Origin: Planctomycetota bacterium
GTDB lineage: Bacteria; Planctomycetota; JAPUJT01
NCBI GenBank assembly: GCA_027296055.1
Contig: JAPUJT010000168.1
Span: forward strand, 1-64,000
Length of the DNA stretch: 64,000 bases
Reading direction: 5' to 3'
The position numbers and the translations under genes are program-made. Under the pieces are notes generated by a model. The model was not told where the DNA came from. It was given only the letters and a program-made list of their open reading frames with translations, and searched no databases. Shown in pieces: positions 30,313 through 32,651 of this stretch (positions are counted from its first letter, which is position 1; each line of letters opens with the position of its first letter).

Positions 30313-31752
30313 ATGGGCACCGCTCTGCTGAAACCTGGCGACCGGATCTCCGAATACCTGCTCGAAGAGAAGATCGGGCAGGGTGGGTTCGGCGAAGTCT
30401 GGCGCGCCCGTCATCACCTCTGGGCGGACCAGCAGGTCGCTGTGAAGATCCCGCTACACGCCGACTGGGTCCGGAAGCTCAAGAAGGAAGGGATGATCCA
30501 GCACGACCTTGGCGGGGACGGAGTGGTGAAGACCCTCGGCCTGGATCCGGACAATGACCCGCCGTATCTGATCCTCGAATACATCGACGGAGGCTCCCTC
30601 CGGGATCAGATCGACAAGGAGGGCCGGTTCCCGGTCGCGCGCGCCCTGGAGATCGCTGCCGACACGATGCGGATCCTGGTGGGGGCCCATGCCAAGGGAA
30701 TCACCCATGGCGACATCAAGCCCGAGAACATCCTGATGGAATCGACGGGGAAAGTCCTGCTCGCCGACTTCGGGTTGAGCCAGATGATGCAGGAGGCCGC
30801 CCAGGACGGGGACCTGGCGGCGAGCCTCTTCACCCAGCAGGGCGAGGGCATCCAGGGGACGATTGCCTACATGTCCCCGGAGCAAAAGGACCCGCGGCGG
30901 CCCGTCGATCACCGCACCGACATCTACTCCCTGGGATTGGTCTTTTTCGAGATGTTGACCGGTTCTCTCCCGGAGGGGGGGGAGGTCCCGAGCGATTTGC
31001 ATCCCGGATTACCCGTGGAGGTGGACCGGTTCTTCCGTCGCTGCTACGCGAGGCTGGAGAAACGGTTCGCCTCGGCCGCCGACGCTCTCGAGGAGCTCGA
31101 GCGACTCGGAAGGACTACGGCGACCGTCAAACCGCCGCCCTTGCCAGCGCCTCCTGAGCACCAGGGACTCTTGACCGAGAAGGAGGCCGCATCCTTCCTG
31201 AGAATCGACATCGTCCAGTTTCGGCGGCAAACCGCCGGCGGGTGGTTGTCCCCGATCAGGCTGCAGACAGGGGAAGAGGGCTTCCGCCTGGCCGACCTGG
31301 CCCCGATTCGACGCAAGATCCGGGACGAATTACTGAAACCCGTCGGGCAACGGGGTCCCCACCAGGCGCACTACGCGGGTTACCTCGTGCGCAGCACGGC
31401 ATTCGTCATAGACTCCCTGGCCGTGATCGTGGTCCCGATTTCCTGGCCTCTGGAACTGTCGGGACTCTTCGTGGCCATCCCGGGCCTCGCACTGATAATG
31501 TTGGCACACGGAGTTGTGGGACACGGCGTCTGGGGAAAGACCCTGGGGAAGGCCATCCTCGGCCTCCGCGTGGTTCGTCGTCCTGGGCAGGAGATGGGCG
31601 CCGGCACAGCCGTGGTGCGATCGTTCGGGAAGATCTTCTCGTTCCTTCCATTCTTCATGGGGTTCTTCATGGCGGGCCTGCATCCTCAGAAGCGGGCCCT
31701 GCACGACCTGATCGCCGAGACCTGGGTGATCCACGACAAGAGAAGTAAATAA
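30313..31752 (+). CDS. Ser/Thr kinase fused to HTH and RDD membrane domain
   Basis: The product has 479 residues in three parts. Residues 1-275 are a Hanks-type kinase: GQGGFGEV glycine loop, VAVKIPL lysine, catalytic loop HGDIKPEN (Gly replaces the Arg of HRD), ADFG and MSPEQ. About 290-345 is an excisionase/MerR-like helix-turn-helix (LLTEKEAASFLRIDIVQFRR, then GFRLADLAPIR). About 355-475 is an RDD membrane domain (YLVRSTAFVIDSLAVI, GKTLGKAILGLRVVRR, KRALHDLIAETWVI). The missing Arg marks a non-RD kinase, usually not activated by activation-loop phosphorylation. It follows the membrane protein by 31 bp, so it may control the ESCRT-like system. Confidence 0.86.
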   Translation: MGTALLKPGDRISEYLLEEKIGQGGFGEVWRARHHLWADQQVAVKIPLHADWVRKLKKEGMIQHDLGGDGVVKTLGLDPDNDPPYLILEYIDGGSLRDQIDKEGRFPVARALEIAADTMRILVGAHAKGITHGDIKPENILMESTGKVLLADFGLSQMMQEAAQDGDLAASLFTQQGEGIQGTIAYMSPEQKDPRRPVDHRTDIYSLGLVFFEMLTGSLPEGGEVPSDLHPGLPVEVDRFFRRCYARLEKRFASAADALEELERLGRTTATVKPPPLPAPPEHQGLLTEKEAASFLRIDIVQFRRQTAGGWLSPIRLQTGEEGFRLADLAPIRRKIRDELLKPVGQRGPHQAHYAGYLVRSTAFVIDSLAVIVVPISWPLELSGLFVAIPGLALIMLAHGVVGHGVWGKTLGKAILGLRVVRRPGQEMGAGTAVVRSFGKIFSFLPFFMGFFMAGLHPQKRALHDLIAETWVIHDKRSK

Positions 31753-31781
31753 GAGGCCTATTACTCACCGGGAGGTGCACC

Positions 31782-32603
31782 ATGTTGCGGAGTGTGTTCG
31801 TTCTCTCCCTGATCGGCTTGGTCGGAGCGGCGCCTGAGAAGGTCATCTTCGGCATCGTTCCGGTCAAGGACGGCGACTTCGTTCGGGTTTCTTATGTGCT
31901 TCCCCAGTCGTCCGCCGCCGCGGCCGGACTGAGGAAGGGAGACATTCTCCACGCCCTCGGCGAGAAGAAGATCCGGGAGGTCGGAGATGTCAAGGAGGCC
32001 CTCGCGAGGAAAGCGCCGGGCGATCCGCTCGAGGTCTTCTACATTCGCAAGAAGAAGAACAAGAAGAAGAAGGTCCGACTCCTCGGGCGGAACGAGTACC
32101 GGGGAGAGTCGCTTCGCAGCAGGACTCGCGGAAGCAAGGGCTTCCCTGCGCCCGAGTGGCACGCCTACGCCTGGGGGAACTTGAAAGAGGGACAGGAGCC
32201 GCCCACTCGCAATAACACCCGCGGGAAGGTCGTGGTTATCCACTGCTTTCAATCGTGGTGACCAGGGTGCCATTCACGGGGGTTCCCCGTGACGAAGAAG
32301 CTGGAGGATCGGTTCGCCAAGGCGAAGGACGTCGTGGTTTTCCATCTCCAGACCGTCTTCGAGGGGCACGGTACCAATACGCCTGAGAGGGGACCCCGGG
32401 AAGTGAAGAAGTACGACATCAAGGTCCCGGTCGGCTACGACGGGCACATCGACGGTGACGAGACGAGCGTCTTCATGCGCCAGTTCGGGACGGGCGGCAC
32501 GCCGTGGACGATCATCATCGACAAGAAGGGGATCGTCCGGGTGAACGAGGTCACCCCGAATGACGTGGACCGCCTCGCGAAGGTGATCAACGACCTCCGC
32601 TAA
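31782..32603 (+). CDS. PDZ-thioredoxin-fold protein, candidate selenoprotein (UGA = Sec160)
   Basis: A GGGAGGTG site precedes ATG 31782. Reading through the in-frame TGA at 32259-32261 gives one 273-residue protein. It has a signal peptide, a PDZ domain (about 20-105, PQSSAAAAGLRKGDILHALG), a basic linker and a TlpA/redoxin fold (about 125-273). The redox motif reads HCFQSW-U-PGC-HSRGFP. The UGA falls exactly on the first Cys of the expected WCxxC, and the second Cys is kept. Downstream the fold continues in the same frame, with the cis-Pro segment GGTPWTIIIDKKG. A hairpin beginning 13 bases after the UGA fits a bacterial SECIS. The alternative, a nonsense mutation or sequencing error at exactly this codon, is less likely. 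It probably acts as an extracytoplasmic thiol-disulfide oxidoreductase. Confidence 0.82.
32275..32291 (+). promoter_or_regulatory. SECIS-like hairpin
   Basis: CACGGGG (32275-32281) pairs perfectly with CCCCGTG (32285-32291) around a GTT loop, within the coding sequence. If the U of UGA is base 1, the loop edge G falls at base 23, the position of the SelB-contacting G in the E. coli fdhF element. A bulged U inside the stem is not obvious. Confidence 0.65.
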
Positions 32604-32606
32604 TTA

Positions 32607-32651
32607 AAGGGACACTCACTTAATTCAAAATAGATAAGTGAGTGTCCCCTT
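32607..32651. terminator. long inverted repeat between convergent genes, terminator-like and part of a dispersed repeat
   Basis: The arms AAGGGACACTCACTTA (32607-32622) and TAAGTGAGTGTCCCCTT (32635-32651) form a near-perfect 16-bp stem between two convergent genes, so it can stop transcription from both sides. A degenerate relative lies at 52011-52051 and half-site-like sequences occur at 39078 and 12116. Confidence 0.75.

Follow-up and report, generated by a model that had tools for sequence, protein, structure and literature searches.

UxxC redoxin selenoproteins, with selenocysteine (Sec) in the first position of the motif, have already been catalogued. They include Prx-like 3 of the Global Ocean Sampling (GOS) survey (PMC2398784) and an entry named Redoxin family protein (PF08534, UxxC), which is listed as a selenoprotein (PMC13188914; also PMC9312934). 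The NCBIfam family NF041199, Trx7/PDZ domain-containing selenoprotein, combines a PDZ domain and a thioredoxin-fold domain, and has Sec in the second position of the motif (CxxU) in its Thioredoxin_7 domain. TlpA/ResA/DsbE-like oxidoreductases, e.g., PDB 3eyt (SPOA0173) and 3lor, have Cys in place of Sec and no PDZ domain.

The gene at positions 31782–32603 of the 64-kb stretch of DNA that was analysed (the window) has similarities to each of these. It almost certainly encodes a selenoprotein, as judged from the sequence and its homologues, in which UGA would be decoded as Sec via a SECIS element; the product would be an exported TlpA/ResA-like oxidoreductase. It shares with the Redoxin family UxxC selenoproteins a redoxin domain, Sec at the first CxxC position and a bacterial SECIS just downstream. 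The likeness to this family (representative HEU0032618.1) is by PF08534 domain, motif and description, and both the domain and the motif (U160-P-G-C163) are present. Unlike the catalogued entries, whose accessible descriptions mention no PDZ domain, the window protein has an N-terminal PDZ domain and a putative signal peptide. It resembles NF041199 in having both a PDZ and a thioredoxin-fold domain, but its motif is UxxC and not CxxU. The match to NF041199 covers the PDZ part only, not the full length, at 28.2 bits against a cut-off of 300, and membership in that family was rejected. The features of the locus are as follows.

30313–31752, forward strand: Ser/Thr protein kinase that also has an RDD membrane domain, upstream of the selenoprotein gene (Pkinase, E 3.4e-34; RDD, E 7.2e-17)
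31769–31776, forward strand: putative Shine-Dalgarno-like GGGAGGTG, 5 nt 5' of the ATG (sequence reading)
31782–32603, forward strand: predicted selenoprotein gene, 273 residues with Sec160; signal peptide, PDZ and redoxin (in-frame translation, Pfam, homologues, AlphaFold model)
31782–31832, forward strand: putative N-terminal signal peptide, about residues 1–17 (by eye)
31851–32078, forward strand: PDZ domain, residues 24–99 (Pfam PDZ_2, PF13180, E 1.1e-10)
32211–32582, forward strand: redoxin/TlpA-like thioredoxin-fold domain, residues 144–267 (Pfam PF08534, E 4.9e-9; fold match 3eyt)
32259–32261, forward strand: TGA codon, predicted Sec160, first position of U-P-G-C (same-column TGA in eight homologues, Cys in others)
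32268–32270, forward strand: TGC, Cys163, predicted resolving cysteine (alignment column invariant)
32274–32292, forward strand: predicted bacterial SECIS hairpin, 8-bp stem, GUU apical loop 20 nt after the UGA (folding, covariation, published model constraints)

The reading frame is open from the ATG at 31782 to the TAA at 32601–32603 except for the TGA at 32259–32261, and consists of 159 codons, TGA and 113 codons. There is no frame damage elsewhere in the gene. An in-frame UGA with intact coding on both sides, as is characteristic of bacterial selenoproteins, is present in 31782–32603. The surrounding sequence, ...HCFQSW-U-PGCHSRGFP..., puts the TGA where a thioredoxin-type CxxC has its first Cys (W-U-PGC). 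The Redoxin match (residues 144–267) is over its Pfam cut-off and spans residue 160; AhpC-TSA is a second, sub-threshold match. Frame and Pfam domains thus bear out the original prediction that the TGA splits one PDZ-redoxin protein at the first CxxC position. A random stop at this codon had also been called improbable, in agreement with a scan of the 64-kb window, in which no other TGA has well-coded stretches longer than 45 codons both before and after it. The N-terminus of PDZ-redoxin is hydrophobic with, by eye, a V-G-A|A-like cleavage site, and a helix is predicted at residues 3–12 with low pLDDT.

An AlphaFold model of PDZ-redoxin (mean pLDDT 89.9, pTM 0.82) displays a PDZ domain and a Trx fold. 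Helix 161–177 begins directly after U160, and a Thr-Pro is found at 240–241. The model is consistent with the TlpA/ResA-like arrangement of a Trx fold with a cis-Pro loop and with a redox CxxC where helix 1 begins, where the TP is judged by position. The best PDB fold matches are 3eyt (TM 0.87 by target length, 35% identity) and 3lor (32% identity). Both have the same fold and align CPGC to the UPGC of PDZ-redoxin; their annotations are thioredoxin-like superfamily protein and thiol-disulfide isomerase. Later matches are mostly DipZ, DsbE, ResA and CcmG-type oxidoreductases. Because the two best matches carry CPGC and the later ones are mostly of these oxidoreductase types, PDZ-redoxin is most likely a periplasmic thiol:disulfide oxidoreductase, with Sec160 as the nucleophile and Cys163 as the resolving thiol.

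The alternative that survives best is a selenoprotein with peroxidase-like (Prx-like) activity instead of thiol:disulfide exchange. The Pfam matches to Redoxin (PF08534) and, below threshold, to AhpC-TSA are compatible with such an activity, and related selenoproteins are called Prx-like in reviews. However, the active-site UxxC occupies the Trx position, the closest solved relatives carry thioredoxin-like and isomerase annotations, and most of the further fold matches are ResA/DsbE/CcmG-type; one peroxiredoxin, 4kw6, ranks 45th. A peroxidase is thus the less likely of the two. As a thiol:disulfide oxidoreductase, the protein would be made when SelB and tRNA-Sec decode the UGA at 32259–32261 as Sec under the direction of the SECIS hairpin (32274–32292), and would then be exported. 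By analogy with the fold family, Sec160 at the N-terminus of helix 1 would attack disulfides or oxidised substrates, and Cys163 would resolve the selenenyl-sulfide. Docking of the enzyme on a partner protein or on a complex in the membrane is the probable role of the PDZ domain. A DsbD-family protein is encoded in the genome, and a DsbD-type transporter may supply electrons to PDZ-redoxin.

Homologues were sought in 199 relatives and then, with a profile, in 392 genomes from the phylum. Eight further Planctomycetota homologues (genomes G131, G026, G013, G045, G043, G185, G018 and G202) have exactly one TGA each, always in the same column; together with the window sequence they make up nine TGA forms. 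No further TGA form came from a search of the class to which G131 belongs. Most of the TGA forms have the site motif UPGC; G185 has UPHC and G018 has UHVC. Cys is in the same column in G062, G211, G056, G044 and G157, and in relatives from many phyla. The contig scan across many phyla used a CPxC peptide pattern that could return Cys forms only, and it shows breadth, not Sec frequency. Cys had been expected in this column among homologues, and the alignment has either Cys or TGA there. Two of the Cys forms of PDZ-redoxin are on contigs G062:C20 and G211:C618. A tree of the redoxin domain has at least five Sec/Cys changes, at least three of which are forced by well-supported (starred) branches, and the Sec form of G185 and the Cys form of G157 are sisters.

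The hairpin downstream of the TGA consists of TCACGGGG (32274–32281), the loop GTT (32282–32284) and CCCCGTGA (32285–32292), or TCACGGGG-GUU-CCCCGUGA as RNA, and has an energy of -13.1 kcal/mol. A perfect 7-bp hairpin with a G-starting loop at the right distance had been described. The hairpin is real and its GUU loop is 20 nt from the UGA, but the stem is 8 bp when the outer U-A pair is included. The published bSECIS model has a loop of 3–9 nt with G in the first two positions, a stem of 4–16 bp, a distance of 16–37 nt from the UGA and an MFE of at most -7.5 kcal/mol (PMC13188914). The hairpin at 32274–32292 agrees with it in loop, G position, stem, spacing and energy. Of all the window's TGA triplets, 5.3% are followed by a SECIS-like hairpin of at least 7 bp; such hairpins also appear in 3.0% of synonymous recodings, and because of these frequencies the hairpin taken alone is moderate evidence for a SECIS. 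The exact geometry is found after 2 of 1618 TGA triplets in the window and in 42 of 5000 synonymous recodings.

Comparison of the nine TGA forms shows an unchanged stem position, an identical 20-nt spacing and an invariant GUU loop. Pairing is maintained in 98.4% of the cells of the stem alignment; the G131 stem has one C-U mismatch. There are compensatory double changes in four of the seven stem pairs, with 13 double-changed cells. The stem covariation score is 0.631 vs a shuffled mean of 0.151, a value reached in none of 500 shuffles, and sliding the partner columns destroys the signal. For four Cys homologues, pairing in these columns is 60.7% vs 56.5% when shuffled, i.e., the stem falls apart and the covarying hairpin is confined to the TGA forms. 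The GGG-TTC-CCC of the stem also codes for an invariant Gly-Phe-Pro. Since these codons partly fix the three inner pairs, the covariation evidence rests on the four outer pairs. This conservation of pairing in homologues is taken as decisive for the predicted bacterial SECIS.

These comparisons bear on the possibility of a pseudogene, i.e., that a true nonsense mutation truncated a formerly Cys-containing PDZ-redoxin. One base change makes TGA from TGC or TGT, and the table 11 open reading frame does stop at residue 159. A pseudogene is nevertheless highly improbable, given that eight other genomes have TGA in the same column, that in all eight the protein sequence encoded 3' of the TGA is conserved, that the gene has no further frame damage and that the covarying hairpin is present only in TGA forms. 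A sequencing or assembly error at a TGC or TGT codon is conceivable in a fragmented draft genome, but a base-call error is untenable because the same-column TGA is found in eight independent homologues from unrelated assemblies, each paired with a SECIS hairpin.

A selenoprotein gene is also in keeping with the content of the source genome, a MAG-like draft of 5.26 Mb (91.7% complete, 5.6% contamination). The four genes to which the original prediction pointed as a check, selA, selB, selD and selC, were all found in it. tRNA-Sec scores 65.9 bits against a 47-bit cut-off and has a UCA anticodon, SelB scores 338 bits and is over its cut-off, and SelA and SelD score 569 and 368 bits. The Sec genes are on contigs of the same assembly other than that of PDZ-redoxin. 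The GC content of these contigs, 0.60–0.65, is in keeping with the 0.63 of the window, and the closest named homologues of PDZ-redoxin are from Planctomycetota. In the SelD gene (G000:C95:1258-2181) the motif SAG-U-AGK likewise contains an in-frame TGA, and 16 nt beyond this TGA lies the loop of a SECIS-like hairpin. The SelD gene is apparently itself a selenoprotein gene, and thus a second gene independently points to the use of Sec; at least two selenoproteins are predicted for this genome. Among the homologues, seven of the eight TGA genomes were taken into the machinery count (G202 was left out), and all seven have SelA and a tRNA-Sec over the Rfam cut-off. In G056, a genome with a Cys form, selA is absent and no tRNA-Sec scores above the cut-off. 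G062, also with a Cys form, has SelA and no tRNA-Sec over the cut-off; it is possibly a lineage that is losing Sec, or an incomplete bin. A genome-wide reassignment of TGA to Trp or Gly instead of local Sec recoding is compatible with the open frame by itself, but its probability is negligible: TGA is not generally reassigned, because no other TGA in 64 kb separates long well-coded stretches, the homologue residue is Cys and neither Trp nor Gly, and the genome has tRNA-Sec(UCA) with SelA, SelB and SelD. The Sec machinery, the Cys/TGA column and the covarying hairpin together support the selenoprotein reading first proposed for this gene.

The kinase gene ends 29 nt 5' of the selenoprotein ATG, and the two genes possibly form one transcription unit. 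A conserved partner was sought in the gene neighbourhoods of the homologues and none is consistent; besides the source genome (G000), only G018 has a kinase next to PDZ-redoxin, and there it is on the opposite side. At 32609–32648 of the window, just past the stop codon, is a REP-like palindrome (GGGACACTCACTTA...TAAGTGAGTGTCCC). A 14-mer of this palindrome has 98 copies in the genome at one mismatch or fewer (56 exact) vs 1 for a reversed control, often in inverted pairs 12 nt apart. The palindrome has no match in the examined loci of other genomes, and in its whole length none in viral contigs. Elsewhere in the genome tRNA-like genes, some of them low-scoring, are densely arrayed: about 19 lie within 1.7 kb at G000:C79:15936-17603 and 6 at G000:C78:12252-12735. 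These arrays resemble the degenerate tRNA clusters reported for planctomycetes (PMC4807772).

With PDZ-redoxin from an uncultured lineage of planctomycetes, the UxxC redoxin selenoproteins known so far gain a PDZ-fused architecture. No paper naming a PDZ-redoxin UxxC selenoprotein was found in the part of the literature covered. It is an evenly balanced question whether the exported PDZ-redoxins (UPGC, also UPHC and UHVC) represent a separate Planctomycetota selenoprotein subfamily absent from current catalogues, with the SECIS loop inside the Gly-Phe-Pro codons and several Sec/Cys exchanges. Covariation in the nine homologues makes a clean case for a bacterial SECIS. Sec/Cys pairs occur naturally within one taxonomic family, which makes them useful for testing what Sec adds. 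The PDZ-redoxin gene would be annotated as two fragments or as a pseudogene, and a redox enzyme would thereby be hidden.
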